In this document: in pieces, positions 18,208-54,612 of the stretch | How positions within the stretch are numbered: the first letter of the stretch is position 1 | Layout of the letters: the number at the start of each line of letters is the position of its first letter | Assembly (NCBI GenBank): GCA_017626845.1 | Contig: JAGAHX010000075.1 | Coordinates: 1 to 55,559 of the forward strand | From: Bacillota bacterium | GTDB taxonomy: Bacteria > Bacillota > Clostridia > Peptostreptococcales > Anaerovoracaceae | DNA length: 55,559 nt | Reading direction: 5' to 3' | Notes under the pieces: generated by a model | The model's input: only the letters and a program-made list of their open reading frames with translations | Database searches by the model: none | What the model was told of the DNA's origin: nothing | Program-made: the position numbers and the translations under genes

Positions 18208-18270
18208 TTCGCTGAGCTTGTCGAAGCGAAATATATAATCTTTCTATGTCCCTTCGACAGGCTCAGGGAC
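18208..18270. repeat. cttcgacaggctcag-type repeat pair
   Basis: gctgagcttgtcgaagc at about 18211-18227 and its inverted partner ccttcgacaggctcaggg at about 18251-18268 flank an AT-rich core. They lie between the Ada-like gene and the end of the DUF1537 kinase gene. Confidence 0.8.
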
Positions 18271-26066: not shown

Positions 26067-26082
26067 AGCAAAAATACAAGTC

Positions 26083-26164
26083 AGAGTATGCTCCCTACGC
26101 CGGCATTACCCGGATCAGGTATAAGAGTATAATCTCAGCCGGACAGGAAAGGTCCAGCACCCCT
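26083..26164 (-). ncRNA. TPP (THI-box) riboswitch
   Basis: The minus strand reads ggggtgct near 26162-26155, then gctgagattatac, acctgatccgggtaatgcc and ggcgtagggagcat. These are the conserved THI-box blocks of the thiamine pyrophosphate aptamer, in order. A terminator follows and thiT begins 68 nt downstream, so high TPP should end transcription early. It starts just behind the grdCD stop. Confidence 0.96.
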
Positions 26165-26192
26165 GTTACTGTTCTATATTAGCACAAAAGAG

Positions 26193-30584: not shown

Positions 30585-31886
30585 TTACTCCTCAAATACT
30601 GTCTGTCCGTCCACCGGGGTCTCCAGAGCCTTGAGCGCTCTGCCGACCAGCTTTTTACGAAGGTCGTGCTCCTCTTCGTGAGACAGAGCGGGGTTGCCCA
30701 GCGGATGCGGGATCGCGACCGTCGGAACGATACGGTTCGCACCGACGGTGAGAGAGATGGGCACGACCGTGCACATATGTACGACGGGGATGCCGGCTCT
30801 TTCGATTTCTTTGACCATTGTTGCACCGCAACGTGTACAGGTTCCTCAGGTGGAGGTGAGGATAACAGCCTGCACGCCGTCCGCGATCAGCTCCTTGCTG
30901 AAGGTATCCGCGAATTTCTTGGCGGATGCCACGGCGGTGCCGTTTCCTACCGTTGCGTAATAGTAATGGGAAAGTTCGCCGATGCGCCCTTCCTTTTCGA
31001 ACTCTCTCATGACGTCTACGGGCAGGACTCTGTTCGGGTCAGCGTTGGCATAGACCGGGTCATAGCCGCCGTGAGCGGTCTCGTAGGTCTTGTCCGTCAG
31101 GACTTCCACGCCGTCGATGTCGTACTTGCCGTAGTGGGATGCAGAGGAAGATTCGATGTGGTCGGGGTTGCCCTTGGGCACGATGCCACCGGAGGTGACC
31201 AGCGCGACCTTAGCGTGGGCCAGGTCGACGACCGCCGGATTCGGGGCCACTCTATCGAACTGGGGCATGGGATATTCGGTCTCGAATTCCTCGCCCTTGA
31301 GCTTCTTAAGGAGCATATCCACGGCTCTTGCGGAACCGCGCTTCTCTTCGAACAGGCCCTTGCGGATGCCGGTGGGGAAATACCCTTCCGCCGCTGCGCT
31401 TCCCAGTTCTTCTCCCTTCGCCATCTTCAAAGCCACCGGAGCCATTGCAGCGACGGCCTTTCTCATGCCGGCCGCGTTGTCCTTGGTCTTCATGATGATG
31501 GTCTTGGACTTGAACATGTCCACGCCCGGGTTTTCGTCGTACATGCCGGTGAGCGTGGGGATGCCCAGCTGCGCCTTCACTTCGCTGGCGACGGTGCCGC
31601 AGGCGACGCCGTAACGGCCTGCGTTGAACGCGGGGCCGCAGATGACGATGTCGGGCTGTTCTTCTTTGATCATGGCGATGACGGTGTCGACCGCCTCTTT
31701 GTTTTCGTTGAAATAGCTGTCGCCGCAGTAGACCGTGGCGACGATCTCGGCTTCACCCTTGAACGCGGCGTTGAACGCCATGCCCGGGCCCACGAAGCCC
31801 TTTACCTTCTCGGGAGGAAGGTTCGCCATCTCTTCTCCGCCCTTGCCGGCGTAGAACTGGTTGATATAGTGTACTACTTTTATCAT
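30585..31886 (-). CDS. grdB: Glycine reductase protein B, selenoprotein subunit (Sec347)
   Basis: The ~47-kDa subunit of protein B that activates glycine for reductive deamination. The frame from ATG 31886 (VVHYINQFYAGKGGEEM) passes an in-frame TGA at 30846-30848, residue 347, in VILTST-U-GTCTRCGATM, and ends at 30585; 433 residues in all. U-x-x-C-x-x-C is the known GrdB centre. Read conventionally it would look like two broken genes of 346 and 77 residues. A short hairpin (gttgc-ggt-gcaac, 30820-30832) starts about 13 nt after the UGA, where bacterial SECIS elements lie. grdE ends 15 nt upstream. Confidence 0.96.
30820..30832 (-). promoter_or_regulatory. Putative bacterial SECIS apical hairpin in grdB
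   Basis: On the minus strand gttgc and gcaac pair around a ggt loop, starting 13 nt after the UGA. SelB-recognised elements in bacteria lie at this distance and often expose G-U in the apical loop. Folding was judged by eye only. Confidence 0.5.
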
Positions 31887-33603: not shown

Positions 33604-33802
33604 CTGCTCTGTACACTAACCTGAGAGTTTCTTTCCACAAATCTGCTTTGGAAATTGTGTCCGGAAATTGCCCCTTCGGTGCTTACGCTCTCCAGAGTTT
33701 CGTCCGATTGCGGTCCTGTTACCTGAGATAATCGCTCTCCGCCCTGGCCGGGGACAGAGAACTTACGCCTTCGGTGCGCTCTTCGCGCTCTCCCGCAATC
33801 AT
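33604..33802 (-). ncRNA. Tandem glycine riboswitch
   Basis: Two glycine aptamers follow one another on the minus strand. The first (about 33802-33711) has gcgggagagcgc, gcaccgaaggcg and ctctcaggtaacaggaccgc. The second (about 33706-33604) has ctctggagagcg, gcaccgaaggggcaa and gaaactctcaggttagtgtacagagc. These are the conserved gcvT-type blocks. It ends about 50 nt before grdX, so glycine should switch on its own reductase, a logical substrate-induction circuit. Confidence 0.96.
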
Positions 33803-33827
33803 CAACCGAATGTTCTGCTTTCAATTC

Positions 33828-35823: not shown

Positions 35824-35920
35824 TGGCGGGAGCATGTGAGAATCGAACTCACCAGGCAGGCTCCTAACCTGCTACAACGGTTTTGAAGACCGCGGGGCAC
35901 ACCGGCACCCATCTGCTCCC
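35824..35920 (-). tRNA. selC: Selenocysteine tRNA (anticodon UCA)
   Basis: The 97-nt minus-strand sequence starts gggagcagatgggtgccgg and ends with an encoded CCA (atgctcccgcca). It has the anticodon loop cttcaaa (UCA), a long variable arm (gcaggttaggagcctgc) and a T-arm gtgagttcgattctcac. The long variable arm, extended acceptor and UCA anticodon identify tRNA-Sec. It sits between selA and selB in the same orientation, so all Sec genes except selD are here. Confidence 0.96.
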
Positions 35921-40549: not shown

Positions 40550-42253
40550 TTATGGAAGCAGATTGCACATGGTGGTGAGGGCCTGCTCCTGGGTGTAATA
40601 GCCCAGGGGATTGAACAGCGCCCTGCCGGTGGACGTGGAACCCATGATCCCTGCGCGGGTCACGAAGTCCACGTAGGTGGCGGCCCAGGCGATATCCGCA
40701 GCATCTTCGTAGTCCAGTGCGTCGCCGTCCAGCGAGTCTTTGCCCACCAGTTTCGCCGCATTGGTAAGCATAACGGCCGCTTCGCGCCGGCTGATGGATT
40801 CGTTTGGCTCGAATTTTCCGGGACTCTTGCCTGCCACGATGCCCAGCTGGTAAGCCTGCAGCACGTCCAGCAGGTAGGTGTCGTTAAAGGCTGCTCTAGC
40901 CGCATCGTAATCGATGCCGTTTTTCGTCAGCAGAGAATTATAACTGCTGCCCGAATAATATTGCTTTACGAGGGATACTGCAAGGCTGGCAAATTCCGCC
41001 CGGGTGATGTTGGCCTTCGGCATCAGGTTGAACCCGTCAGGGATCAGACCTACGTTCTGTGCCTTTTCCACATAGGCTTTCGCCCAGGCGGATGGTTCTC
41101 CCGCCATGGGGTTCTGGCCCTTTTTGGGGATCGCATCCGCAGATCCGTAATCTACGAAATGCAGCATGCTGGCCAGTTTTCTTCCGGCAGGCTGCACATA
41201 GCCGCTTCCGGATACGTACAGCGTGGAAGAAGCGCCGCCGTCCAGCGCCAAGGCATCCACCGCACCGATGCCCTTCAGATAGTCGATGATCTGGCCGAAT
41301 GTGGCCGTGCACTCTCCGATCATCAAGCTGCCGTCTCCCAGGATGGCCGCAAAGGTGCGCTGTGCTTTATAATCCCGGCCCATCTTGGGATCGGAGCTCA
41401 CGTTTTCCGCGAATTTGTCCACGCCGCCTTCCAAAAGCCAGGGGGAACATCCGACGGCAGTCACGACCCTGTCCCAATCGCTTTGCGTTCCAGCCTTTTC
41501 CGGTGTAAGGATGGTCTCGATCTCCGCCAGGTTGCCGACGTGGGGTTCGGTGTTCCAGGTGCAGGCGTTGGCCCAGGCATTGGCATTGAAGACCATCACC
41601 TTTTCCCCTGCCGCTGGAACGTTCAGCCGGCTCTGCCCGGTCTGCACATCCGTTACCATGCCTCCCTGCATGCGGACCACGACGGCGCCGCTCTGCAGCG
41701 CAAAAGAGTAACCCATCTCGGAAGTAAACAGATCGATGGCGGAGGCGTCCGTATGATAGGTGTTGACCGCCCAGGCCGTAAACTTATCCTTTCCGCGGAA
41801 CTTTGCCGCCACGGACACGCTCACCCGGTCGATCAGGAATTTACCCGTATCGGTGACCCCCAGCAGCACGTTCTTGCCTGACCCCCGGGAGATCACTTCT
41901 CCCCGGCTCATCAGCATACCCATGATCTGAGCGCAGTTATCCGGATAGCTGAGCGTCTTACCGGCATTGTAGTATGCATTGAACAGAGCGCCGTTGACCG
42001 AAGCGAGCAGACTGCCGCTGCCTGCATTGGCTTTCGCCACATGGTCTGCAGCGGGCATGTCCTTGTTGACGCTGTTCTGCCCTGTGGTGATGACCGCTCC
42101 AACGGTTCCGTTCGCCGGGATCGTCACCGCATTGCCGGCATTGCCGCCAATAGTGATGGCATAAGGCGAAGCCGCATAGGCAGGCGCAGCAAAAAACGGC
42201 ATGCAAAGCAGTGCCGTTAATAGGATTGCAGATATTTTCCGGATCGTCTTCAT
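40550..42253 (-). CDS. SLH-anchored phosphodiester glycosidase (NAGPA-domain) protein
   Basis: A 567-residue secreted protein. A signal peptide (LLTALLCMPFFAAPAYA) is followed by a NAGPA/phosphodiester-glycosidase domain to about residue 365 (GSLLASVNGALFNAYYN; DGSLMIGECTATFGQIIDYL; ALDGGASSTLYVSGSG). Members of this family remove GlcNAc from phosphodiesters or act on bacterial wall polymers. Three SLH repeats follow (PKANITRAEFASLAVSLV; KFEPNESISRREAAVML; a weaker last one), so it attaches to secondary wall polymer. RBS aggagg lies before ATG 42253. It lies 20 nt after the fused ECF gene. Confidence 0.85.
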   Translation of the reverse strand: MKTIRKISAILLTALLCMPFFAAPAYAASPYAITIGGNAGNAVTIPANGTVGAVITTGQNSVNKDMPAADHVAKANAGSGSLLASVNGALFNAYYNAGKTLSYPDNCAQIMGMLMSRGEVISRGSGKNVLLGVTDTGKFLIDRVSVSVAAKFRGKDKFTAWAVNTYHTDASAIDLFTSEMGYSFALQSGAVVVRMQGGMVTDVQTGQSRLNVPAAGEKVMVFNANAWANACTWNTEPHVGNLAEIETILTPEKAGTQSDWDRVVTAVGCSPWLLEGGVDKFAENVSSDPKMGRDYKAQRTFAAILGDGSLMIGECTATFGQIIDYLKGIGAVDALALDGGASSTLYVSGSGYVQPAGRKLASMLHFVDYGSADAIPKKGQNPMAGEPSAWAKAYVEKAQNVGLIPDGFNLMPKANITRAEFASLAVSLVKQYYSGSSYNSLLTKNGIDYDAARAAFNDTYLLDVLQAYQLGIVAGKSPGKFEPNESISRREAAVMLTNAAKLVGKDSLDGDALDYEDAADIAWAATYVDFVTRAGIMGSTSTGRALFNPLGYYTQEQALTTMCNLLP

Positions 42254-42273: not shown

Positions 42274-44925
42274 TTATTCTATGATAGCATACTTCACCTT
42301 GATGCGGTCCAGTTTTTCCAACATGGGCTCCGCACCGAACCACAGAAAGATCCAGGTCGTAGCCGCATGTACGCAGTCCACGGGGAAGCCCGTCAGATAA
42401 TAGGTGATCAGGATCTCCTTATTCAAAGTATGTGCCCACATGAGCGCGGCTGCCGGGTTCATAATGCCGCCGTAGATGAGGATCGCGCACAAAGCGCCGA
42501 AAATGCACAGCGACAGACGGCTTCTGCGCAGCACGCCTTTACGGTACAGCACACCGGCCAGGAAGCCTATAATGCCCATGGCAAACATCTGCCAGGGCGT
42601 CCAGGGCCCCTGGGAGAACAACACGTTGGACACGAGCATCGTGACCGCCCCCACGAGAAAGCCGGTCTCGCCGCCGAAAGCGACGCCTGCCAGGATCGTG
42701 ACCGCCATCACAGGTTTAAAACCCGGCAGCATGAAGAACGCCGCCCGGCCGGCCACACCGATGGCGCACAGGGCCGCAATCGTCACCAGTTCCCGGGCCT
42801 GGGGTTTTCGCCCTTCGAAGATCAGGAAGAACGGCATCATGCACTCCAGCAGCACGAGAAGCGAGATAAAGTAATATTTGCGGCCGCCCAGCCAGGTCTC
42901 TCCTGCAAACAGGGTGACCGGGATGAGAAACAGGATGAGCGCAGAAGCCGCCGCAGTGCGCTTCGACAATTTTCGCTTATCCGCTGGCGTCTGGAGCGCC
43001 GTATCCTTTCTCGTGCTGCGACCGCCGATGCAGAAGGCAAACACGAGCAGCAGCGCGATAAAGATGCCGTACTGCAGCATCTGACCGCCTGCCATGGAGG
43101 CAACGCCCTTCTCGTTCAGAAGCGAACTCAGGTCCTGTCCCTTCATAAAGCGCAGGAACATTATAACTGCACAGAGTCCGGAAGCAAAGGCTCCGAGTTT
43201 GCGCACGGGAGCGAGTCTAGTTTTATCCATAGCGGAACTTTCCTGCTTTGGGAGCGGCATGCGGTAAGCTCCTGCCGGCATCTTCTTTTCTTCAGGAACC
43301 TCCGCGCCGAGTGCCGCCATCACATCCTCTGCCGTGACTGCACCGGGCATAATGTCCCTGGCCATACGGCTCACAGAAGTCGTGTAAAACGTGTTGCCGG
43401 GGAAGAAAGCCGATGGGACACCCTCCGAAACGATGCCGCCGTCAAAGACAAGACCGCAGCGGTCCGCATATTTGGCGCAGAACTCCACGTCGTGACTCAC
43501 CATCACGATGGTAACGCCCTTTCTCTGCAGCGCCTTCAGGATCTGCGCGAAGATCTGTTTGAATTTCGCATCCATGCCCTTGGTCGGTTCATCCAGGAGC
43601 AGTATATCCGGTTCCAACAGCAAGACCTTCGCCAGCGCTGCCCGCTGCTGTTCGCCGCCGGACAGGTCGTAGGGATGACGGTCCAGCAGTTCCTGCAGAG
43701 AGCAGAGCTGCACGACACGGGCAGTCTTTTCTTCCCGGTCCGGATCGCTTTTGGGCAGCATCTCCAGCAGGTCCTCCCGCACCGTCTTTTTGACGAACAA
43801 CGTTTTTGGATCCTGCGGCAGCATGCGCACGCTGTCCTTTGCTGCGATCTCGCCGCGGTATGGCTTTAGCAGACCGCACAGCAGCTTTAAAGAAGTCGTC
43901 TTACCGCTTCCGTTTCCTCCCAGCATCGCGTAAAATTCGCCCCGCCGTACTTCCAGCGACAGGTCTTTTACGACATCGGGAGCATCTTTTTCGTAGCGGA
44001 AGTAGAGATCTTTGGCGGAGAGGACGATATCACCTTCTGCGTTCTCTTCGACAGGTTCGGGGAACGTTTTGGGACCCAATCCCTCCTTCTCCACGTACTT
44101 CTTCAGCCAATCCTTACCTTCCCGCACGGTAAGGGGCACCTGTGCGAAATTCGCTCCATCCGGCACAGCAACCCAGATGCGCATGGCGGCAGGCATCGCA
44201 AGAAACATGGCGCTGCCTTTGTCCCGCAGTGCAAGCCCCGCGTCCCGAGGGGTTCCGCAGAACACCACTTCTCCCTGATCCATGACGACAGCGCGGTCCG
44301 CCAGGGCAAATGCCTCTTCCAACCTATGTTCTGTCAGAAGCACCGTTGTGCCCAGCTCCCGGTTGATCTTTCCCAGGGTCGCCAGAAAATCCGACGCCGC
44401 GATAGGATCCAACTGGCTGGTGGGTTCATCCAGGATGAGCAGAGACGGACGCATCACCATGATGGATGCCAGATTCAGAAGCTGCTTCTGACCCCCGGAC
44501 AGCTCCGACACATTTTTGTAAAACCAGTTCTGAATGCCGAAAAACGACGCCATCTCCGCCACCCTTCTGCGGATCTCCGAGGTTTCGACGCCCAGGCTCT
44601 CCAGTCCGAAGGCAAGCTCGTGCCAGACCTTATCCGTTACGACCTGATTATCCGGATCCTGCTGCACGAAGCCGATCCGTTCGCTCTGGGTCCGGAGATC
44701 CATGTCCGCAAGCGGCATACCGTCTACGAGGATCTCGCCTGTCAGCGTGCCCTTCGGCGCCAGTACGCTCTTCAGCTGGCGAAGCAGTGTTGTTTTGCCG
44801 CATCCGGACGGACCGCAGAGCACAGCAAACTCGCCCTGCTGTACGGCAAAGGCTGCATGTTTTACGGCAGGGGTTTCCTGCTGCGGATAGGTAAATGTCA
44901 GATCCCGGACGACAAGCGCTTCCAT
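42274..44925 (-). CDS. ECF transporter: two EcfA ATPase domains fused to an S component (CbrT-like)
   Basis: Energy-coupling-factor importers normally use two ATPases, EcfT and a separate substrate-binding S protein. This 883-residue chain joins three parts. ATPase 1 spans ~1-240 (Walker A LCGPSGCGKTTLLRQL, signature ELSGGQKQLLNLASIM, Walker B LLILDEPTSQLDP). ATPase 2 spans ~305-530 (MLGGNGSGKTTSLKLL, DLSGGEQQRAALAKVL, ILLLDEPTKGMDA). A membrane region from ~600 to 883 has about eight helices and the S-component pattern FKPVMAVTILAGVAFGGETGFLVGA. The second Walker A reads GGNGSGKT in place of the usual G(R/P)NGSGKT. The cobalamin riboswitch controlling the operon suggests B12 or a corrinoid precursor as substrate. 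Its start overlaps the EcfT end by 28 nt. Confidence 0.88.
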   Translation of the reverse strand: MEALVVRDLTFTYPQQETPAVKHAAFAVQQGEFAVLCGPSGCGKTTLLRQLKSVLAPKGTLTGEILVDGMPLADMDLRTQSERIGFVQQDPDNQVVTDKVWHELAFGLESLGVETSEIRRRVAEMASFFGIQNWFYKNVSELSGGQKQLLNLASIMVMRPSLLILDEPTSQLDPIAASDFLATLGKINRELGTTVLLTEHRLEEAFALADRAVVMDQGEVVFCGTPRDAGLALRDKGSAMFLAMPAAMRIWVAVPDGANFAQVPLTVREGKDWLKKYVEKEGLGPKTFPEPVEENAEGDIVLSAKDLYFRYEKDAPDVVKDLSLEVRRGEFYAMLGGNGSGKTTSLKLLCGLLKPYRGEIAAKDSVRMLPQDPKTLFVKKTVREDLLEMLPKSDPDREEKTARVVQLCSLQELLDRHPYDLSGGEQQRAALAKVLLLEPDILLLDEPTKGMDAKFKQIFAQILKALQRKGVTIVMVSHDVEFCAKYADRCGLVFDGGIVSEGVPSAFFPGNTFYTTSVSRMARDIMPGAVTAEDVMAALGAEVPEEKKMPAGAYRMPLPKQESSAMDKTRLAPVRKLGAFASGLCAVIMFLRFMKGQDLSSLLNEKGVASMAGGQMLQYGIFIALLLVFAFCIGGRSTRKDTALQTPADKRKLSKRTAAASALILFLIPVTLFAGETWLGGRKYYFISLLVLLECMMPFFLIFEGRKPQARELVTIAALCAIGVAGRAAFFMLPGFKPVMAVTILAGVAFGGETGFLVGAVTMLVSNVLFSQGPWTPWQMFAMGIIGFLAGVLYRKGVLRRSRLSLCIFGALCAILIYGGIMNPAAALMWAHTLNKEILITYYLTGFPVDCVHAATTWIFLWFGAEPMLEKLDRIKVKYAIIE

Positions 44926-45791
44926 ATACGATCCTCTCGAAGGTCAAGAAATAAGGGGGTAAAACAAAGGGCAGCATAAACGGCCTGGAAAGCGAACGGC
45001 AGCAAACCCCAGGCGCCCTTCACCGTTGGATAATACCGCCAGGCGAAGGCGCCGGCTGCCCAGCCTCCGGCCAGAAACAGGCCGCAAAAGACGAGCCACA
45101 GCAGCGCCAGCTTATCCCGTTCCTCAAAGCGGTAGATCGAAAACGCCGTGCGCCCGGGCTGTCCGTAGTCGCGGCAGCGCATGGAATCCGCCGTTTCGAT
45201 GCCATTTTCCAGCGCCCACGTCACCAGAATGGACAGGATCGTGACCGCCTTCTTCAGCCGCTGCAGCAGGCCGCCCGCGCTCACATCCCGGCCTATGCCG
45301 GCCTGGGCCTCCCGCACCGCATCCAGCTGTGTTTTAAACCGGGGCACGAACCGCAGGGTCATGGAAAGAACCAGGGAAAGCGCCGGGATGATGCGCCCGA
45401 ACAGATATACGAACTTATCCGAGGTCATGACAGCCGTGTAACAGGAAAACCAGGAGATGACCGCCGCCAGCATCAGCGCTGCTGCGATGCCGTAATAAAT
45501 GCTCTCCGCTGTAAGCGGGTTGCCTGTGGGCAGATAGGTAAGGATTGTCGCCCCTTCGTGGTTAAACACGGGGTTGACCACCGCAGCGAGAAGCATTATG
45601 GGCAGCAGAAAACCGGCGGAAAAGCGCGCACCCTTCCGCCCATTCAGATACACGTTATAGCTGATGGCTGCTGCCAGGGTCACACCCAGAGAGACCGGGT
45701 GCATCAGGCACATGGCAAACAGCAGCACCAGGGCGAAATACAGAAAGTTGACCGCCGGATGATAACTTGCAAAGGCATCCCGGTTCTTCAC
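44898..45791 (-). CDS. ecfT: ECF transporter transmembrane protein EcfT
   Basis: Membrane scaffold coupling EcfA ATP hydrolysis to S-component toppling. 297 residues with five to seven helices; it begins at GTG 45791, 1 nt after the DUF4430 gene. The cytoplasmic coupling helices carry MTLRFVPRFKTQLDAVREAQA and NGIETADSMRCRDYGQPGR. The latter stands where the usual A-R-G/Arg coupling motif is found. With the next gene it makes a complete T-A-A'-S module from just two polypeptides. Confidence 0.88.
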   Translation of the reverse strand: MKNRDAFASYHPAVNFLYFALVLLFAMCLMHPVSLGVTLAAAISYNVYLNGRKGARFSAGFLLPIMLLAAVVNPVFNHEGATILTYLPTGNPLTAESIYYGIAAALMLAAVISWFSCYTAVMTSDKFVYLFGRIIPALSLVLSMTLRFVPRFKTQLDAVREAQAGIGRDVSAGGLLQRLKKAVTILSILVTWALENGIETADSMRCRDYGQPGRTAFSIYRFEERDKLALLWLVFCGLFLAGGWAAGAFAWRYYPTVKGAWGLLPFAFQAVYAALCFTPLFLDLREDRIWKRLSSGI

Positions 45792-45792
45792 G

Positions 45793-46665
45793 TCAGTTCC
45801 CTACCGCATAATGACCGCCCACATCGTAGCCCAGATCGCAGGTATAGACCCAGCAGACCACGTCGCCTTCCTGCAGCGCGTAACGGCTGCACCCGTAATT
45901 GGGAAACCATCCGTTGACGGAATACATCCAGCCGGACAATTCGCCGCAGTCGAATTCATAGAGGTTGTGGATCCCTTCGATATAGGCGCTGTTGTACATG
46001 GGCGTGTTCTCGAATTCCATGTGGATCGCGTTTTGCCGGCAGACCCGCTGCAGCAGGTTAAACACGCTCTCCCCTTCGTAAAAGGTTACGGCTGCCGCCG
46101 GAAGGATGACCCCATCATCGGGCACTAGTTCGACCTTTTCCGGATCCAGCCAGTCCATGTGGTCTAAGATCGTGTCGCAGCGGATGGAAATGGTGCAGGT
46201 GTGGGGAACGTCCGTAACTTCTGCATCCTGGGGCTCTACCGGGACCGGTTTGCCTTCGGGCACGGGCGTTGTGTTGTACTGGTCCATGCCGGTGGCAGGG
46301 TCGATGTCTTGTTTTGGAGCTTCCTCTGTCGCTTCGACGGGCTCAGCGACCGTCTGTTCTTCCACGGGCCCTGAGCCTGTCGAAGGGCCAATTGGATCTA
46401 TTTCTTCTTCCGTCGCTTCGACAGGCTCAGCGACCGTCTCTTCGGACTCAGCGATCGTCTCTCCGGGCTCAGCGACCGTCTGCTCGGGCCCTGAGCCTGT
46501 CGAAGGGCCATCTGAATCTATTTCTTCTTCTGTCGCTTCGACATGCTCAGCGACCGTCTCCGCCTTCCACCCATGCAGGCTCGGTGCACCGCCGCCATAC
46601 CAGAACGCTGCTGCCAGAACTGCCAGGATCACAACACCGGCAATGAGTTTTGTTCTCGTCTTCAT
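45793..46665 (-). CDS. Membrane-anchored DUF4430 (transcobalamin-C-like) protein with repeat-derived linker
   Basis: A 290-residue surface protein. An N-terminal helix (LIAGVVILAVLAAAFWYGG) anchors it. Residues ~35-120 are a low-complexity linker in which the DNA repeat cttcgacaggctcag is translated as VAEPVEATEEEID / GPSTGSGP units. Residues ~155-288 are a DUF4430 domain (CTISIRCDTILDH; YEGESVFNLLQRVCRQ; GELSGWMYSVNGWFPNYG; LQEGDVVCWVYTCDLG). DUF4430 is related to the C-terminal beta domain of intrinsic factor and transcobalamin. It overlaps the upstream SLH barrel gene (ATGA) and abuts ecfT, so I infer that it hands cobalamin to the importer. Confidence 0.82.
   Translation of the reverse strand: MKTRTKLIAGVVILAVLAAAFWYGGGAPSLHGWKAETVAEHVEATEEEIDSDGPSTGSGPEQTVAEPGETIAESEETVAEPVEATEEEIDPIGPSTGSGPVEEQTVAEPVEATEEAPKQDIDPATGMDQYNTTPVPEGKPVPVEPQDAEVTDVPHTCTISIRCDTILDHMDWLDPEKVELVPDDGVILPAAAVTFYEGESVFNLLQRVCRQNAIHMEFENTPMYNSAYIEGIHNLYEFDCGELSGWMYSVNGWFPNYGCSRYALQEGDVVCWVYTCDLGYDVGGHYAVGN
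46330..46560. repeat. cttcgacaggctcag repeats inside a coding sequence
   Basis: At least four direct or inverted copies of the unit (gcttcgac-ggctcagcgaccgtct and gggccctgagcctgtcgaagggcca) alternate, with degenerate partial copies between them, in the linker of the DUF4430 gene. All keep the reading frame, as the unit plus spacers are multiples of three. Confidence 0.85.
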
Positions 46666-48326
46666 AACAGATCCGCCTCTCCCAGCAGATTAAACAGCAT
46701 CTGCGCAACTTCCGCCCGGGTGACCGCTTTCAGCGGCTCAATATTTACGGCGCTGTCGTCCAAAATTCCGCTGTCATAGCAAAATGCCAGGAATTTTCTT
46801 GCCCACTGCGCGGACTTTGTGTAGTCGCCGAAGACAGCCAGCGTATCGCGGATCTGCACAGCATCCCGTTCGATGTCCATGCCGCACAGCTTCGCCGCTG
46901 CAGCTACCATAACAGCAGCCTCCTGTCTGGTGATCGTCCCGCCGGGATTAAACTTTCCGCCTCCTGTTCCGGCAGCGATCCCATATTTGTAAGCCGCCGC
47001 AATGCGTCCCGAAGCCCAGTGGCCTTCCGTATCCGTAAAGGCATTGGCTGATTCTGCAGGCAGTCCCAATGCTGCCGTTACCATGGCGCAGAACTCCGCT
47101 CGGGTAAGCGTGCGGTCCGGCCGGAACGTCCCATCCGGATAACCCGTCACGATGCCACGCGCCGCCATGGCTTCGATGGCCGCCACATGGTCGTTCAGAT
47201 TGGCGTCATCGAAGGTGGTTCCCGGCGCCGTGACCGGCACATTTTTCACCGCCGGATCTTTTCCGGGCAATCCCTGGCCGCGTCCGGTTTCCGATGCGTC
47301 GGCATCGGGGACCGTGCGGGCATCGCTCATGCGATACAGGCTGCTCTTGCCCTGCTGCATCCGCAGCGCAGCCACGATGCCGTAAAACCCCTGTTCCGCC
47401 GACATCTGGCTGTTGCCGTCTCCGCTGGCTGTGTGCCGGAAACCGCCGTTCGCCGTCTGATAGCTCAGTACGTTATCCAGCAGCGTATGACCATTTTTCA
47501 CAAAGCGGGGATCGTCCAAGGGAATGCCCAGTTCGCACAATCCCACCAGCACCTGCACCACACTTTCCGAATTGGTCGTGCCCCAGGAACCGTAGCCGCC
47601 GTCCGCGTTCTGCCGTTTGCTCATGCAGTCCAGGGCTTTTTCCACAGCCTCCGCGACCGCCGGCTGACCCATATATTTCGCCAATGCCTGCAGCGCCATA
47701 CCGGTAATATCCGGATCGGCCACCGCATCGGATGCTCCCGCAGATTCCGTGCCGCCGAACAGGCTCCAGCCTCCGTCCGGCAGCTGGCACGCCAGGATGC
47801 GGTCCACGTACATCTGCCGCGTCGCCTGCGTCTTTGCTTCCGGATTCATTGGCATCGGATAATTCCGGGAATCCAGGGCAATGAGCGCCCAGATCGGCCC
47901 ATTGAGACCCTGCCAGATGGTCTTATCGTAGTCGCCCAAAGGTTTCGTCAGATCGTAGCCCGCTACACTGCGGGCATCCTTTCCGATCGCGGATAGTCCG
48001 ATGATCGCCCGGGAATAGTCCGTATACTTTTTCTCGTGCAGCACACCATCGCAGGCTTTTACATATTCCTCTACCGCGCTGTAATATCTCTGATAGTAAG
48101 TATCCGGAACGTCGATACCGCTGCGGGCAAGGCCGAGGATCGCCCACTCCCCGCCTACGGTACCCGGCTGAGGGTCTTTTACTGCCTTTTGCATATAGGC
48201 TGCGGACAATGCTGCAGCTTTCTGCAGATCCGCCGTATCCACGCCAAAAACCGTTGACGGCAAACAGCCGATCAGCAAAGCTAAAACCAGAAGAAGCACA
48301 CCGGTCCGTTTCTTGCGATCCTTCAT
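46662..48326 (-). CDS. SLH-anchored prenyltransferase/squalene-oxidase-repeat (alpha/alpha barrel) protein
   Basis: A 554-residue protein. It has a signal peptide (VLLLVLALLIGCLPSTVFG). An alpha-alpha barrel follows to about residue 340, with repeats typical of this fold (GGEWAILGLARSG; QLPDGGWSLFGG; QNADGGYGSWGTTNSESV; TANGGFRHTASG). Then come three SLH repeats (TFRPDRTLTRAEFCAMV; KFNPGGTITRQEAAVMV; EPLKAVTRAEVAQML). The terpene-cyclase catalytic DxDD is not seen, so it is unlikely to be an enzyme of that class. Intrinsic factor and transcobalamin use the same barrel for cobalamin binding. It is the first gene after a cobalamin riboswitch, with the DUF4430 partner next. Confidence 0.85.
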   Translation of the reverse strand: MKDRKKRTGVLLLVLALLIGCLPSTVFGVDTADLQKAAALSAAYMQKAVKDPQPGTVGGEWAILGLARSGIDVPDTYYQRYYSAVEEYVKACDGVLHEKKYTDYSRAIIGLSAIGKDARSVAGYDLTKPLGDYDKTIWQGLNGPIWALIALDSRNYPMPMNPEAKTQATRQMYVDRILACQLPDGGWSLFGGTESAGASDAVADPDITGMALQALAKYMGQPAVAEAVEKALDCMSKRQNADGGYGSWGTTNSESVVQVLVGLCELGIPLDDPRFVKNGHTLLDNVLSYQTANGGFRHTASGDGNSQMSAEQGFYGIVAALRMQQGKSSLYRMSDARTVPDADASETGRGQGLPGKDPAVKNVPVTAPGTTFDDANLNDHVAAIEAMAARGIVTGYPDGTFRPDRTLTRAEFCAMVTAALGLPAESANAFTDTEGHWASGRIAAAYKYGIAAGTGGGKFNPGGTITRQEAAVMVAAAAKLCGMDIERDAVQIRDTLAVFGDYTKSAQWARKFLAFCYDSGILDDSAVNIEPLKAVTRAEVAQMLFNLLGEADLL

Positions 48327-48343
48327 AAACTCTCCTCACCCGA

Positions 48344-48374
48344 TAAAAAAACTGCAGTACAAACGTACTGCAGT
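48344..48374 (-). terminator. Terminator of cobalamin riboswitch 1
   Basis: actgcagtac (48351-48360) pairs with gtactgcagt (48365-48374), followed on the minus strand by seven T. It lies 18 nt before the SLH barrel gene. Confidence 0.92.
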
Positions 48375-48384
48375 CCGTATTTAC

Positions 48385-48540
48385 TGCGTATGCCTTCCGG
48401 ATCATCGCCTGAAAGGCACAGCGCATGCAGGAGTCCTGACTTATGAACGGCAAGCGTTCAATCACAGTAGCGGGTCTGTTCCGGGTTTGCACCGGATTCG
48501 CTTTTAACCGCTTCCAACGAAGAGGCACATGCGCCTTTTA
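48385..48540 (-). ncRNA. Cobalamin riboswitch 1
   Basis: The minus strand carries the conserved B12 elements in order: ggcgcatgtgcc, ccggtgcaaacccgg, acagacccgctactgtga, gtcaggactcctgcatgc, and the closing stem region. The terminator lies directly downstream, so cobalamin should turn off the six-gene uptake operon. Confidence 0.95.
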
Positions 48541-48543
48541 TCT

Positions 48544-48572
48544 ATTTTAGCATGGTTATCTTATGTGTTCAA
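48544..48572 (-). promoter_or_regulatory. Promoter of B12 operon 1
   Basis: Minus strand -35 TTGAAC (48567-48572), 17-bp spacer, -10 TAAAAT (48544-48549), a few bases before the aptamer. Confidence 0.6.
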
Positions 48573-48588: not shown

Positions 48589-48996
48589 TTAAAACATTGC
48601 ACACAATTGTTCCGGAAGAATGGCCGGAACCGGGCTTTGTTTGTAGTCTTTCAGATTTCGGGTCACGATATAGTCTGCTGCGACGGCCTTCGCTGCGGTC
48701 ACCTGGACCGCATCCTCATAATCTCCCCAGCGCATTCCCGCGGCTTTCTGCAGATCCTTAAAACGAAGATCGGCGAATAAAAAGATCTGGGCAAGACTTC
48801 TCAGTAAAGATTCTGTCTTATCGGGGCTAAGAGACTTGCGCATGATATATACGATATCGGCAAAAGACAACACGCTTACATATCCGCGAACAAGTCCGGT
48901 CTCGCACAGTTTCCACACCAAAGAAGAAGATTTCGTAAACGGCTGCCGATCCATCAGTACATCCAGCAGGATATTGGCATCAATCAGCAACGTCAT
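48589..48996 (-). CDS. PIN-domain toxin (VapC-like)
   Basis: A PIN-domain ribonuclease, 135 residues from ATG 48996. It starts LLIDANILLDVL with the first catalytic Asp. Later acidic sites include FADIVYIMRK and GDYEDAVQVTAAKA, then YIVTRNLKDYK. It overlaps the Phd-like antitoxin by 17 nt. The pair lies between the two B12 loci and may stabilise this region. Confidence 0.85.
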   Translation of the reverse strand: MTLLIDANILLDVLMDRQPFTKSSSLVWKLCETGLVRGYVSVLSFADIVYIMRKSLSPDKTESLLRSLAQIFLFADLRFKDLQKAAGMRWGDYEDAVQVTAAKAVAADYIVTRNLKDYKQSPVPAILPEQLCAMF

Positions 48997-49222
48997 AATG
49001 TTCCCGTATCCTCTCTTCCCTGGGATCTTCCATATCGGATGCATGTTTTAAAGCACCGACCAAAGAATCTGTCAAAAAAGTGACAGAAGCATCTTTGGGA
49101 AGCATGCGCCCAACTTCCTGTCCGTTTTTCGTTATGATAACCTGATTTCCATTCATGATCATGGCGAGATATTTCCCGAAATTATTCTGAATTTCCGTAG
49201 CGGTTGCAACAATATGAGTCAT
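48980..49222 (-). CDS. Phd/YefM-family antitoxin
   Basis: An 80-residue antitoxin. The N-terminal DNA-binding part has ATEIQNNFGKYLAMIMNGNQVIITKNGQEVGRMLP, typical of Phd/YefM. The C-terminal tail (LKHASDMEDPREERIREHYD) should wrap the toxin. ATG 49222 has an RBS (ggaggtgg) upstream; the longer frame has no homologous residues. Promoter autoregulation is usual for the family. Confidence 0.85.
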   Translation of the reverse strand: MTHIVATATEIQNNFGKYLAMIMNGNQVIITKNGQEVGRMLPKDASVTFLTDSLVGALKHASDMEDPREERIREHYDVAD

Positions 49223-49358
49223 TCGGCCACCTCCATAATAGCTAATTTTATTATATATTATTTTAGCCATTATTCAATGTGCCTTCGACAATACTGGCAG
49301 AATGATGATAACACACATATTTTACCATGTCAATATATTCCTGTCATATCTTTCCATC

Positions 49359-49440: not shown

Positions 49441-52400
49441 TTATTTCGCCACATTCTCCAGGAAATTCCGGAGGATCGTAGCCGCTTCCGCGCGGGTCGT
49501 GGTGCCCTTCGGCGCCAGCAGATCCGCGCTCCGTCCGGTGATCAGATTTGCACCCTTCGCCCACCGAACTGCTTCCAGTGCCCAGGCGCTTATCTCATCC
49601 ACATCTTTGTATGCGGACAGATCCGCACCTTCCGCCAGCGTATAGCCCTTCAGCTTCGCATAGCCGTACAGCATCACGACCATCTGCTCGCGGGTGATGT
49701 CGTCATTGGGGCCAAAATTCTCGCCATAGCCTGCGGCCACGCCGTTTTCCACGGCCCAATCCACGCCTTTGGCAAACCAGTCGCTCGTCTTGACGTCGTC
49801 GAATTCCGTCTTGCCGTCCTCTGCCGGTACGCCTTCCAGGCTGTACAGCATGGAGACCAGCATGCCGCGGCTAAGCTCCTTGTCCGGGCTGAAGGTGTTT
49901 GCACCGGTACCGGTCATAAAGCCCTTCTCCACCGCATAATCCACAGAGCCGGCGAACCAGTCGTTCGACTCTACGTCGATAAACCGATCGGCCACGCTGC
50001 CCGGGTTCTCGGGAGTCGTACCAGGCTGTTCCGTTGCCGGATCGACCGGCGTCGTTCCTCCCTGACTGCCGGGACGCACGTCCGCAGCCTCCAGCCAGCG
50101 GTTATAGAATTCTCCATCTGTCTGAGCTGCCGGGTAAGCCGGCTCATCGAACCAATCTTTCACCTCGTAGCGGTAGTCGTTTACGTAGTGGAAGATCACC
50201 TCCGCGCCATCCTTCAGTTTCTGGTCCTTAATGGCGTTCGTGTGTTTACCGTCCATGGTGTACATCCAGCCGGAATATTTACCGTTCGTAAATTCGGAGA
50301 GCCAATACCCACCTAAAGATTCAGGAGCTTTAATAGAACTCACGTACCCCTTATTTGCGCCCTTAGATTCAATTCCCGCATCGCTGGTCGCCTTCACGAA
50401 CAGGTCGTATACGGAATCGTCGGAGTGCATGGTATAGGTCCGGGTCTTGATCCAGTTCTGGTATTCCGCAGTGTAGTAGCCCTCTTCGCCTTTGCTCAGA
50501 TCTACGTCCTGCGTGGACTTCGTTGACCCGATCAACCGGAACGTCACCTTAATGGTATCGTCGCTGCCGCTGCCGCTCTTCAGGTCTTCCAGGGCTTTTT
50601 CCGCCGCTTCCAGCACGGCCAGATTGCCGACGAGTGCTTTCTGGGAATCTGTCAGCGCGTCGTAAGCTGCTCTTGCCGCCTGGATCTCTTCTTCTTTGTA
50701 CTTTGTGATCTCACCAATGGCCGCGATCTGCTTTTCCACAGCCTGCGCCTTCGGTGTGTCTGCCTTCAGCTGCGCGATCTTTGCTTCTGCAACTTTCAGA
50801 GCATCTTCGTTCGTAACGAGTGCTTTCTGGTCGTCCGTCAGTGCGTTATAGGCTGCTCTGGCAGATTCCACAGCTTTTTCATCGTCCAGAGAGATATCAT
50901 CTCCCAAGGCAGTGATCGCGTCAGAAACGACCTTCGCAGCTGCTGCATCCGCTTCTTCCTTCGACGCAGCATCCTGCAGTTCTTTCAGTTTGGTTTCTGC
51001 TGCCGTCAGCGTATCCAGCTTTTCGACTTTGGCCTTGGCTGCATCGTCCAGCGCTTCGTAAGCATCTCTTGCTGCCTTGATCGCTGCGGCGCTTTCCAGT
51101 GTTACATCGCCGATCGCTTCGATATTATCGTCCACTGTTTTTGCAGCTTCTGCAGCCGCGGCATCCGCCTTCTCCTCGTCGGTCATCTGCCGCAGGTTAA
51201 AGACGTAGATCAGGGGTTCGCATTCGTCGTTCTGCACGATCACGCGCACAATCTCGTGGTCGGGGATCTTATCGTACGTTACGCTCGCCTCGGGATTGTT
51301 ATTGATGTAAACATGGGAGCCTTCCGGCGCATCCACCTTCACCTCGAATTCACCGTCGACGGCAACTGCCGCATCTCCCGTAAAGGAGAACACGTTGTTT
51401 CTCTCGCTCACGGCTGTGCCGGTGCTCAGGTCCACTTCTTTTCCGTCGAAACTGATGCTGGCCGGTGCCTCGCTGACCCCGACAGCGCTGTTATTCGCCT
51501 GCGCCACGCGGACCATGTTGACTTCGGTGGATTTTTCGCCGATGGCACCAGCATCAATATTACTGGCTGTAACGATTTTTACATAATGGATGCCATTATC
51601 AAATATAACTGGCTGACCATCCGCGTCAACTGCCCACGCAAGATCCATACCGTCCGTCACAGACAGAGTTTTAAAAGTACCCGTACTGGTTTCTTTTTCT
51701 GTCCATCCTAAATAGGGATTGCCTGCAATATTTCTAGCGAACTTGTCGTTAGCAGAATCCCCAAAATCGGATGTAGATTCTCCTTCCAAGACTGTTCGGC
51801 GCATACCAACATCAGTATATCCGAAACCAGGGAATAAAGTTTCAGTTGCGTCCCGTGATCCTAAATGGATAGATTTTAGAACAATTGTATCTGGATTATT
51901 GCCAAAATCATAGAGAGGATATAATGTCGCATCTGGAAATAGATAGTTACTACTTCTGGGAGTAGATGTATACCAATAGTTATCTGTCCAGGTATACTTT
52001 CCGTCATCTGTCTTCCTATAGGTTATTTCATAATCCCATATGACATCATCGTCATAATGAACAGAACCTGCCAATGCATAGTAGTTGACACCATCCTCAG
52101 AAACCCAAACCTGACCGGGTTCAGCGAAATCACTATTAGCTCCCACCGAATTGCCAAAGGTAATAAAGTCAATTCCATAAGGATTGTCGGAATTATCATA
52201 GATGGCATCTTTGTAATAATAAACAATATAACCGCCGAACCCCCCTAATGATACAGGCCCGCTGAAACCGCCGCCAACATCTGTATTGCTTCCAACTAGA
52301 GAACGGACACCACGCAACCCATAATCACCAGACATAATGCCTACTGGCAGGAGATTGTCACCTAAATAATTCGTATATTGGGATGCAATACATAAATAGT

Positions 52401-53427
52401 CCGTAACACTGTCTGGCAAACCAGAAAACCTTTTTTGTATAACATATACAGTATATGTTATGCTTTTGTCACCGGCATCAATGACAGAAATAGTATTTAC
52501 GTTTGCGTTTAGGCTTTCATTTTTATATAAAGAAGTTAATTTTGACTCGAATAAAACAGTTGCTTCTCCATTATCATCCGTAAAAAATGGAGCACCTTCA
52601 TTTATAGATACTTCTGTTTTGCTTGAAAATTTTAGTGTTGCTTTTATATTGTCCTTACCATTTGGTACAATCAAAAACGTTTTATTTCCTTTTGTTACAT
52701 CGTAAAGCCATTCTTCATATTCAAATTGACCTTGAGTTGTGACAATCGATTCTAATTGAACAGATTGTTTTATCTGAAAGCGCAACGAAATTGGATACGG
52801 AACCCATTCAAAATTATCAACATCCGTGCAAATTATATAAAAGACTAGTTCCTTTTCTCCGTTTTTCAAAGATGTGGTGATATTAAAAGTATTAGTTGAA
52901 TTATCGTAAAGCGAGTTGCTTTCAGAAAAAGCAACATTTTTAGGATACATGTCATCCTGTGTCACCTCATCCATTACTTCAGCCAATATACTGAATGGAA
53001 GAGTTGGTGCGTCTATTTTATTTTGCACGATCATTGGAGATGGTCCATACTCCGCTACTTGTACTTCATATAAATATGCAAAATATGGATCGTTCATGCA
53101 GCTTTCTAAATCTTCTGGATCAAAAAGAAATTCAGGGGGTGCAGTCTCTTCCGCAAGAGCGAGAAATGGATCTTGCGCTGCTATTTTAAGAGTTATTGTT
53201 TCATCAACAGCTGTATTCGAATCAAGCGTAATGACATATGTTCCTTTTTGATCCTTTACAACCTCATCACAAATAATTGCCCCTTCTAATTTGATGGAAC
53301 CGAACGGATCGATACTAAAACTATTTGTAGCCGAATCAGCATATACAATGCTGCCACCAAAAGATGGAAAGACTATTGTCAATAGTAATGCAATTGTAAG
53401 GAGCCATGGAATAATTTTTTGTTTCAT
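49441..53427 (-). CDS. Giant SLH surface protein with DUF4430 domain and helical repeats
   Basis: 1328 residues. Signal peptide (LLTIALLLTIVFPSFGGSIVYA). Residues ~30-340 are beta-rich and unrecognised. Residues ~345-640 form a domain with VGGGFSGPVSLGG, YGIDFITFGNS and EPGQVWVSEDGVNYYALAG, similar in pattern to surface domains of gut bacteria. Three ~65-residue helical repeats span ~750-950 (AARDAYEALDDAAKAKV; SARAAYNALTDDQKALV; AARAAYDALTDSQKALV). A DUF4430 domain spans ~955-1080 (SVYDLFVKATSDAGIE; YWLSEFTNGKYSGWMYTMDG; LKDGAEVIFHYVNDY). Three SLH repeats end it. The part coded by 51600-53427 is AT-rich and the rest GC-rich. It is the second gene of the riboswitch-2 operon. Confidence 0.88.
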   Translation of the reverse strand: MKQKIIPWLLTIALLLTIVFPSFGGSIVYADSATNSFSIDPFGSIKLEGAIICDEVVKDQKGTYVITLDSNTAVDETITLKIAAQDPFLALAEETAPPEFLFDPEDLESCMNDPYFAYLYEVQVAEYGPSPMIVQNKIDAPTLPFSILAEVMDEVTQDDMYPKNVAFSESNSLYDNSTNTFNITTSLKNGEKELVFYIICTDVDNFEWVPYPISLRFQIKQSVQLESIVTTQGQFEYEEWLYDVTKGNKTFLIVPNGKDNIKATLKFSSKTEVSINEGAPFFTDDNGEATVLFESKLTSLYKNESLNANVNTISVIDAGDKSITYTVYVIQKRFSGLPDSVTDYLCIASQYTNYLGDNLLPVGIMSGDYGLRGVRSLVGSNTDVGGGFSGPVSLGGFGGYIVYYYKDAIYDNSDNPYGIDFITFGNSVGANSDFAEPGQVWVSEDGVNYYALAGSVHYDDDVIWDYEITYRKTDDGKYTWTDNYWYTSTPRSSNYLFPDATLYPLYDFGNNPDTIVLKSIHLGSRDATETLFPGFGYTDVGMRRTVLEGESTSDFGDSANDKFARNIAGNPYLGWTEKETSTGTFKTLSVTDGMDLAWAVDADGQPVIFDNGIHYVKIVTASNIDAGAIGEKSTEVNMVRVAQANNSAVGVSEAPASISFDGKEVDLSTGTAVSERNNVFSFTGDAAVAVDGEFEVKVDAPEGSHVYINNNPEASVTYDKIPDHEIVRVIVQNDECEPLIYVFNLRQMTDEEKADAAAAEAAKTVDDNIEAIGDVTLESAAAIKAARDAYEALDDAAKAKVEKLDTLTAAETKLKELQDAASKEEADAAAAKVVSDAITALGDDISLDDEKAVESARAAYNALTDDQKALVTNEDALKVAEAKIAQLKADTPKAQAVEKQIAAIGEITKYKEEEIQAARAAYDALTDSQKALVGNLAVLEAAEKALEDLKSGSGSDDTIKVTFRLIGSTKSTQDVDLSKGEEGYYTAEYQNWIKTRTYTMHSDDSVYDLFVKATSDAGIESKGANKGYVSSIKAPESLGGYWLSEFTNGKYSGWMYTMDGKHTNAIKDQKLKDGAEVIFHYVNDYRYEVKDWFDEPAYPAAQTDGEFYNRWLEAADVRPGSQGGTTPVDPATEQPGTTPENPGSVADRFIDVESNDWFAGSVDYAVEKGFMTGTGANTFSPDKELSRGMLVSMLYSLEGVPAEDGKTEFDDVKTSDWFAKGVDWAVENGVAAGYGENFGPNDDITREQMVVMLYGYAKLKGYTLAEGADLSAYKDVDEISAWALEAVRWAKGANLITGRSADLLAPKGTTTRAEAATILRNFLENVAK

Positions 53428-53488: not shown

Positions 53489-54454
53489 TTATTCAACAGT
53501 TATTGTATAGGTTGTTCCTAAATATTTTGGGAATTTGTAATATACACCACCTAAAGTGTACCAAGCTGAATAGACTGTAACTAACTCAATAGTGTGATCT
53601 CCAGGAGATAATGTTACGCCACTCTTTGTAATGGTACCATTGGTAATAGTCACGTAACTTTGGCTATTATCCACCTTCATATATACTTTCTGAGACGTAA
53701 TGGGGTTATAATTATATTTGTCGTTATCAGTTACATGCCAATAATACAAGATATCTTCTGTTATTTCTTCATCCCATGAATATGCAGAAGCCACAGCAAC
53801 AGTTAACATGTTGCTGAAAGCATTGTAATTAGCATCAGTAATATACATTGTACGAGTTGCCGTTGATTCACTTGCGGTACTATCCCCAAAGTATAGATCA
53901 ATAACATCGCCGGCCACTACATATGCTTCATGAACTTTCGCACAGCAAGGGCCTTCTGTAGATACATTGTGATCAGAAGGAATATCAATTGCGTTCAGAA
54001 GAGGATACTGCCCATTTATTTTATACAGCCAACCTCTGAATTTTGTTAGATTTGTAAAATCAGGAGCAAACACCGTGTTTCCTTGTGCTGTATCTTTTAC
54101 CCCATATACAAATGTCGAAGTATTTGTAAAAGGATCAAGATTCGCATTCTTATAAATGCTTAACCAAGAATATTGAGTTGATGCTGCATAAAGTACATCA
54201 GCAACTGTGTAAGTAGTCGCAGGGCTACTAGATGAGCCAAGCGTTACAGGTAAATTTGTTCGTTTAATAACTACTGAACCAATCGTATCGCTCACGATGT
54301 TTAGGGTCACTGTAAATTGTCCAGAAACTGTCGGAGGATTAGTGCTGGCTGCTTGGTTATATGTTCCAGGCCGTACAGAAGTAGCAAACGAAGGCACCGC
54401 ACAGGCAAAGACCATCGTCAATGCTAGCAATAAAGTGATAAGTTTCTTTGTCAT
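53489..54454 (-). CDS. Secreted DUF4430-containing protein without anchor
   Basis: 321 residues from ATG 54454; ggag lies 9 nt before this ATG but touches an earlier in-frame one. A signal peptide (LITLLLALTMVFACAVPSFA) is followed by a DUF4430-like domain, ~35-190 (FTVTLNIVSDTIGSVVI; YTVADVLYAASTQYSWL; TKFRGWLYKINGQYPLLNAI; VAGDVIDLYFGD). The end is a beta domain of unknown type (WHVTDNDKYNYN; LSPGDHTIELVTVYS). There is no SLH, sortase signal or lipobox, so it should be free in the wall or medium. A vicinal Cys pair (GPCCAKVHEAY) is notable. It is the first gene behind cobalamin riboswitch 2. Confidence 0.8.
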   Translation of the reverse strand: MTKKLITLLLALTMVFACAVPSFATSVRPGTYNQAASTNPPTVSGQFTVTLNIVSDTIGSVVIKRTNLPVTLGSSSSPATTYTVADVLYAASTQYSWLSIYKNANLDPFTNTSTFVYGVKDTAQGNTVFAPDFTNLTKFRGWLYKINGQYPLLNAIDIPSDHNVSTEGPCCAKVHEAYVVAGDVIDLYFGDSTASESTATRTMYITDANYNAFSNMLTVAVASAYSWDEEITEDILYYWHVTDNDKYNYNPITSQKVYMKVDNSQSYVTITNGTITKSGVTLSPGDHTIELVTVYSAWYTLGGVYYKFPKYLGTTYTITVE

Positions 54455-54577
54455 CTTGGGCATCTCCTTTCGATAACCAAATGGGACTTCGCAATGCGGT
54501 TCCACACTGCGATCTATCAAAACAGCGATACAGCAACCGCTGCCTGCAGACTGTTGTTGGGCGGGTCACGCCCCGGA

Positions 54578-54612
54578 ACAAAAAAAGAACAGTAGAGCGA
54601 TTCTACTGTTCC
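54578..54612 (-). terminator. Terminator of cobalamin riboswitch 2
   Basis: gaacagtaga (54587-54596) pairs with tctactgttc (54602-54611), followed on the minus strand by seven or more T. The 120 nt between it and the gene start hold another small hairpin (gggcgggtcacgcccc) and the RBS. Confidence 0.92.

Follow-up and report, generated by a model that had tools for sequence, protein, structure and literature searches.

Does an importer of the energy-coupling factor (ECF) class receive its corrinoid from surface proteins akin to the cobalamin (B12) carriers of animals? This question is raised by an operon on the minus strand of contig JAGAHX010000075.1 (assembly GCA_017626845.1) from a Bacillota bacterium of the Anaerovoracaceae, the whole 55,559 nucleotides of which were analysed and are called the window here. 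The operon runs from a cobalamin riboswitch match with a terminator through the genes for an alpha/alpha-barrel protein with S-layer homology (SLH) domains, a DUF4430 protein and an ECF T component to a gene in which two ECF ATPases and an S component are fused (Table 1). Judged by homology, genomic context and folds, the barrel and DUF4430 proteins are likely the two halves of a transcobalamin-like capture device that would hand cobamides to the importer.

An earlier note on this DNA had proposed that the two halves of the clamp of transcobalamin and intrinsic factor are separate surface proteins here and pass B12 to an ECF importer. All features on which it was built were found again on the minus strand by Rfam, Pfam and open reading frame (ORF) coordinates, including the importer genes directly behind the DUF4430 gene, namely those for the T component (weak CbiQ match) and the 883-residue ATPase-ATPase-S chain. 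The range given to the operon (44898..48572) was too short, as the ATPase-ATPase-S gene extends to 42274. For the 297-residue T ORF, Pfam gave no match above its cut-offs, CbiQ (22.7 bits) lying under a cut-off of 111.8; relatives carry a T gene in the equivalent position, ahead of the ATPase gene.

The 554-residue barrel protein matched three SLH domains (111.9 bits) and SQHop_cyclase_C (29.4 bits, cut-off 26.1) in Pfam, and a hydrophobic N-terminus was seen by hydropathy in this protein and in 78 of its 80 homologues; with SLH repeats above cut-off and such an N-terminus, it has the make-up of an SLH-anchored wall protein. The 290-residue protein, whose gene overlaps the barrel gene by 4 bases, matched DUF4430 in Pfam at 64.8 bits (cut-off 23.8), and its N-terminus is also hydrophobic. 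The folds, export and anchoring of these surface proteins are predicted.

The importer and its gene neighbourhood across genomes

At the level of sequence, the firmest single link to B12, and one absent from the earlier note, is the homology of the S domain with CbrT. When the S domain alone was searched against PDB sequences, 6fnp_A was the sole significant match (E 1.6e-6). A 22-row profile of the window and 21 of 45 S domains (profile A4) matched 6fnp at 5.1e-16 (62.3 bits), RibU 3p5n at 8.6e-5 (25.6 bits) and 4hzu at 0.012 (18.7 bits); the S component is nearer in sequence to CbrT than to other solved S components. The entry 6FNP is ECF-CbrT of Lactobacillus delbrueckii, a demonstrated transporter of cobalamin and cobinamide, whose prediction is cited as dating from 2009 (PMC5997447), and CbrUVT is given as a B12 uptake role in PMC6593275. 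The window importer resembles ECF-CbrT in its S component and in an ECF module with a T component and two ATPases. It differs in that both ATPases and the S component lie in one chain and that extracellular-type proteins are encoded alongside, whereas the available parts of the account of ECF-CbrT name no extracellular-type partner protein (PMC5997447). Import of cobalt was considered as well, but the match of the S domain to CbrT in PDB sequences makes it the less favoured option; a CbiM family model was not used in any search.

Co-occurrence was surveyed in 61 genomes, comprising the genome of the window (2.28 Mb, 82 contigs, 94.8% complete) and 60 relatives, several of which are less than 90% complete. 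DUF4430 was found in 41 genomes (103 listed hits), the barrel in 31, a CbrT-like S component in 35 (plus three weak matches) and cbiD in 29. The CbrT-like S component was accompanied by DUF4430 in 33 of 35 genomes, or 36 of 38 when the three weak matches were counted. No barrel without DUF4430 was found in the 31 barrel genomes, whereas 10 of the 41 DUF4430 genomes have no barrel (7 of the 28 that are at least 90% complete), and six of these ten have a CbrT-like S component. Because, in these genomes, DUF4430 is found without the barrel and the barrel never without DUF4430, it is DUF4430 that probably forms the invariable partner of the importer, with the barrel as what looks like an optional half that requires DUF4430. 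Among the riboswitch matches listed (at least 150, strictly filtered, with the site of the window at 48409 added by hand), 44 of the 103 DUF4430 hits lay at most 10 kb downstream on the same strand, against 9 of 103 in a mirrored control; without the hand-added site, the count was still 44 and the control one lower. In genomes without a barrel match, a minimal form was also observed, in which a riboswitch is combined with a DUF4430 gene and a short gene for a weak CbrT-like S component (G042:C1:78392-80256, G053:C86:47683-49549 and G060:C17:6297-7492).

Gene order was examined in loci of named genomes, for which a scan with the barrel profile supplied the best 80 of 528 relatives (L164 left out); gene profiles were seeded from the proteins of the window itself, and gene starts were taken as the first possible start codons. 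The loci include Flavonifractor plautii, Butyricicoccus, Sporobacter termitidis, Anaerovorax, Candidatus Formimonas warabiya and four Paenibacillus, and many derive from gut and rumen samples according to their record titles. A barrel-SLH gene was present in 80/80, as expected from its use as the query; in public data more widely, 4705 barrel hits were counted, 120 of them listed. With the home-made profiles, a DUF4430 gene stood behind the barrel gene in 70 of the 73 loci with room for it (68 from the profile count plus L140 and L161, whose called frames overlap more), and the gap between the two genes was at most 31 bases in 59 of 71 measured. A T gene was found in 54 of 67 loci and the one-chain ATPase-ATPase-S form in 38 of 49.

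An upstream riboswitch was present in 30 of the 42 loci whose upstream DNA extends for 7 kb or more. Nine loci with weak nhmmer hits, and these nine only, were rechecked with Rfam, which confirmed eight but not L122, without which the count is 29. Of the 12 loci without an upstream riboswitch, 10 have no RF00174 match, while the match lies on the opposite strand in L132 and downstream in L136. The pairing of barrel-SLH and DUF4430 genes under cobalamin riboswitches, as the earlier note had envisaged, is thus the usual arrangement in these loci. That note had named homologous operons consistently lacking such riboswitches as the outcome that would speak against it; most of them have one upstream, and the proposal was therefore not refuted on this ground.

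Resemblance of the surface proteins to animal B12 carriers

Transcobalamin, intrinsic factor and haptocorrin (2BB5, 2PMV and 4KKI) have the same pair of domain types in one chain, whereas the window barrel and DUF4430 domain are encoded by separate genes, as the earlier note had claimed. One-chain forms exist in relatives, and 16 natural barrel-DUF4430 fusions were found among the 80 loci. One fusion of 460 residues was modelled, with a predicted local distance difference test score (pLDDT) of 91.4 and a predicted template modelling score (pTM) of 0.85. In a Foldseek search of this model, transcobalamin, intrinsic factor and haptocorrin occupied ranks 1-15 (6.2e-12 to 1.2e-9), the next match being at 4.8e-5, and the bacterial fusion matches both domains in order.

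Sequence comparisons were made with profiles of the barrel (A2; the window, 65 split barrels and 14 of 16 fused ones), of DUF4430 (A3; the window and 37 of 74 small DUF4430 domains) and of the fusion (A5; 11 of 16 fusions, with fewer than 560 residues from barrel start to DUF4430 end). Transcobalamin was not found at the thresholds used with the single barrel protein, the single DUF4430 protein, the barrel profile or a narrow DUF4430 profile. With a broader DUF4430 profile, the transcobalamin beta domain was the best match, at an E of 0.012 that is level with an anti-CRISPR protein (0.013), and with the fusion profile transcobalamin-2 was matched at 0.0013 in the DUF4430 part, ranked under cyclase and Ig-like matches to other parts. 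Trees were made of a sample chosen for its similarity to split barrels. One cluster held 80 of the 81 split barrels, with a support of only 0.47, and another 73 of the 74 small DUF4430 domains, with a support of 0.77, each apart from fused or giant copies.

Several results fall short of a transcobalamin-like device. The window barrel was modelled with high scores (pLDDT 95.9, pTM 0.93), and VIA-align of this model ranked squalene-hopene cyclase first, as for a generic alpha/alpha toroid; the barrel profile matched squalene/terpene cyclases and alpha-2-macroglobulin-type toroids in PDB sequences, not transcobalamin. The fusion model lacks the closed clamp of the animal carriers, its domains being placed differently (root-mean-square deviation of ~23 Å over both domains). 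To these is added the occurrence of DUF4430 without any barrel described above. Transcobalamin was also absent from the best 50 VIA-align matches listed for either model, an absence that excludes nothing.

Riboswitch leaders, second unit and other features of the window

The riboswitch that the earlier note had placed at the head of the operon was confirmed, with a full-length RF00174 alignment (model 1-189), and the 61 nt around the hairpin behind it gave -19.7 kcal/mol (z -3.3 vs shuffles). A second RF00174 unit, with two more DUF4430-type proteins, had been overlooked. In both units, an aptamer is followed by a terminator-like hairpin, which is the anatomy of a transcription-attenuating OFF switch, and promoter-like sites were found at the 5' ends of both by consensus scans only; a response to the ligand and repression of the genes behind both leaders would follow from this layout.

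Within the second unit, the 343-residue protein gave nothing above cut-off in a Pfam search and 19.3 bits with the home-made DUF4430 profile, with which a similarly placed 329-residue protein of a locus of the same genus (L041) gave 36.6 bits; the real start of the 343-residue protein is probably a later ATG. The 1328-residue protein matched DUF4430 (26.4 bits, cut-off 23.8) and SLH (110 bits) in Pfam, and across its own genome Pfam found DUF4430 in this gene and the 290-residue gene only. Among the 80 loci, a giant DUF4430 protein with SLH, sometimes with a barrel of its own, is often encoded upstream of the barrel gene. The region that separates the two riboswitch units of the window (48589-49270) holds a PIN_3 toxin-like gene and, under the Pfam cut-off, a Phd/YefM-like one; in many relatives the next detected gene upstream of the barrel gene is the giant DUF4430 gene and not this pair.

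Table 1. Positions of the operon, the second riboswitch unit and an adjoining gene in the window
Position	Strand	Feature	Basis
48409..48547	minus	Cobalamin riboswitch heading the candidate capture/import operon	RF00174, 68.8 bits, gathering score 31.5
48349..48376	minus	Intrinsic-terminator-like hairpin between aptamer and first gene (12 pairs, loop of 4, T-run)	
46662..48326	minus	554-aa protein: export-type N-terminus, predicted alpha/alpha barrel, three C-terminal SLH matches	Pfam, hydropathy, model
45793..46665	minus	290-aa DUF4430 (transcobalamin-beta-type) protein with predicted N-terminal membrane anchor and long linker	Pfam, hydropathy
44898..45791	minus	297-aa ECF transporter T component, assigned by weak match and position	CbiQ, 22.7 bits
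42274..44925	minus	883-aa chain: two ECF ABC ATPases and CbrT-type S component (last 193 aa)	Pfam, PDB-sequence search
40550..42253	minus	567-aa phosphodiester-glycosidase (NAGPA) and SLH protein	Pfam NAGPA 58.7 bits, SLH 49 bits
54655..54846	minus	Cobalamin riboswitch of second unit (DUF4430-type surface proteins)	RF00174, 117.4 bits, gathering score 31.5
54586..54612	minus	Intrinsic-terminator-like hairpin behind second-unit riboswitch (11 pairs, then T-run)	Consensus scan only
53489..54520	minus	343-aa DUF4430-like protein with hydrophobic N-terminal stretch	Weak home-made DUF4430 profile match
49441..53427	minus	1328-aa surface protein: DUF4430 near residues 1004-1082, three SLH matches	Pfam

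At the other end of the operon, the NAGPA-SLH gene starts 20 bases past the ATPase-ATPase-S gene and is possibly the last gene of the operon; an SLH gene is equally placed in two loci of the same genus (L040 and L041). A palindromic repeat of the repetitive extragenic palindrome (REP)-like type, with the core TTCGACAGGCTCAGGGC, was observed in 12 copies in the window (at most 3 mismatches; 0.18 expected), at 46333-46553 and also at 3854-3914, 18209-18269, 20572, 44047 and 49402. Five copies lie within the coding linker of the DUF4430 gene (46333-46553), and may have lengthened this linker in frame. Other RNA elements in the window are a selenocysteine insertion sequence (SECIS)-type element (30808-30845), a selenocysteine tRNA (35828-35920), a thiamine pyrophosphate (TPP) riboswitch (26074-26174) and two adjacent glycine riboswitch aptamers (33607-33805).

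Proposed working, rival explanations and relation to earlier work

Under shortage of adenosylcobalamin, the leader would read through its terminator, as its anatomy suggests, and the operon would be expressed. SLH domains would hold the barrel protein in the cell wall, and a transmembrane helix with a long linker would keep the DUF4430 protein close to the S component. The barrel and the DUF4430 domain would then trap a corrinoid between them, in the manner of the two transcobalamin domains, before its release to the S component, the barrel adding affinity or reach to DUF4430; the 343- and 1328-residue proteins of the second unit could act as extra catchers farther out. The nature of the ligand, a complex between the two proteins and the hand-over are what we infer from the evidence above. 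We prefer this working to its rivals, as somewhat more probable than not, and the interpretation of the earlier note as a whole is partly supported.

An explanation that we consider unlikely is that the CbrT-type importer has DUF4430 as its only corrinoid-binding partner outside the cell, and that the barrel-SLH protein has no contact with B12 and serves as a scaffold of the wall or S-layer, or as a glycan-binding toroid. It would suit the ten genomes with DUF4430 and no barrel, six of them with a CbrT-like S component, and a barrel that is structurally like GH88/GH105, epimerase and cyclase toroids as much as like transcobalamin. The mean column identity of the operon DUF4430 domains (82%, 38 rows) also exceeds that of the barrels (49%, 80 rows), a weak argument because the two row sets are unequal in breadth, the barrel set containing 14 fused copies. 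Against it stand the lack of any barrel genome without DUF4430, the barrel gene that so regularly precedes the DUF4430 gene and the natural fusions of the two. That the surface proteins do an unrelated job, such as glycan or terpenoid chemistry or adhesion, and merely share a riboswitch operon is very improbable in our judgement: cyclases, epimerases and glycosidases share the toroid fold, and SLH proteins are often wall proteins, but the gene order with the importer is kept across Clostridia-labelled loci and the four Paenibacillus loci, and the natural fusion jointly matches the animal B12 carriers.

The cargo itself bears on a further explanation, which overlaps the proposed capture device and differs in the ligand alone, namely that mainly other corrinoids (cobinamide, foreign cobamides or corrinoids that have leaked from the cell) are salvaged or recaptured for remodelling. 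In the genome of the window, 7 RF00174 matches were listed, 6 of them above the cut-off, and the other cobalamin riboswitches precede corrinoid-synthesis and BtuF-type genes. Contig C1 has matches to CobA, CbiL, CbiK (plus a tandem copy), a precorrin-2 dehydrogenase-type protein, a binding protein, CbiB and CbiD, with a CobD-like aminotransferase under the cut-off, and farther along to CbiA, CbiC, CbiG, CbiJ and corrin methylases. On contig C60, a Peripla_BP_2 binding protein lies behind a cobalamin riboswitch. BtuC- and BtuD-type neighbours were recognised by eye, and B12-binding domains of user enzymes are present, including one 805-residue frame with both domains. From the CobA and Cbi matches, the genome therefore probably makes corrinoids, and the cell probably both makes and imports them. 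DUF4430 was unrelated to cbiD over the 61 genomes (18/29 with cbiD and 23/32 without; Fisher p 0.59, kinship ignored), and CbrT carries cobinamide besides cobalamin (PMC5997447). The ligand may thus be foreign cobamides or cobinamide, and we hold this explanation to be a reasonable possibility at somewhat less than even chance; control by the riboswitch fits general B12 shortage and does not discriminate between ligands, and a producer may still prefer import. As a separate observation, the tandem CbiK, a chain with two copies of the cobaltochelatase (436.8 bits; L079:9932-11725, contig C1), lies directly behind a cobalamin riboswitch and has a lipoprotein-like N-terminus by eye, which makes it a candidate exported chelatase.

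The core idea, a toroid and a transcobalamin-like beta-grasp domain scavenging B12 in Gram-positive bacteria, is already published. Burroughs et al. (2007) described Gram-positive transcobalamin-like SLBB domains, in many cases in one chain with a toroid and with CbiO and CbiQ genes alongside, proposed them as B12 scavengers, suggested that animals acquired their B12 carriers from such bacteria, and noted that these bacteria usually lack key enzymes of B12 synthesis (PMC1796856). The window agrees with that proposal in its secreted DUF4430/SLBB-type proteins, its toroids, its operon with a CbiO-like ATPase and a CbiQ-like membrane protein, and the presence of a second SLBB protein in the operon (PMC1796856). 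It differs in having two chains where toroid and SLBB domain were described as fused in one, and in its SLH domains, cobalamin riboswitches and CbrT-type S component, the terms 'riboswitch' and 'S-layer' being absent from the main text of 2007 (PMC1796856). The expectation that bacteria with such proteins lack B12 synthesis fails here: the genome of the window, seemingly that of a corrinoid producer, has much of the anaerobic corrin pathway, and DUF4430 and cbiD are unlinked. For the two-chain form, the riboswitch, the CbrT link and the dependence of the barrel on DUF4430, no published description was found in a search of titles and starts of abstracts, with subscription literature mostly outside its range. 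The module is real, widespread and riboswitch-linked, and its general purpose was foreseen in 2007.

A comparison may also be made with BtuG, which has an unrelated beta-propeller fold and works with the outer-membrane transporter BtuB. The BtuG surface lipoproteins of gut Bacteroides likewise are anchored proteins that capture B12 at the surface, and B12-riboswitch terms occur in the text describing them (PMC6143338); the system of the window differs in combining a Gram-positive-type wall protein with an ECF importer. In its full form, the proposal is that an ECF importer has its own binding machinery, a split transcobalamin whose S-layer barrel and membrane-tethered beta-grasp half clamp a cobamide between them and pass it on to a CbrT-type S component. 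At work across Clostridia and in some Bacilli, such machinery would correspond, in Gram-positive bacteria, to surface B12 capture, and it would constitute a two-chain version alongside the one-chain proteins from which the animal carriers are thought to have come; we give this picture about an even chance of being correct.

ECF importers are described as capturing their substrates by membrane proteins (PMC2667541), and an exception to this would be a conserved operon in which extracellular catchers accompany a B12-type ECF importer. The operon would offer a candidate surface system for Clostridia and Paenibacillus in competition for B12 and function candidates for DUF4430 and SLH proteins without a known role. 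With split and fused relatives present today, the 2007 proposal of a Gram-positive origin of the animal B12 carriers would become testable.

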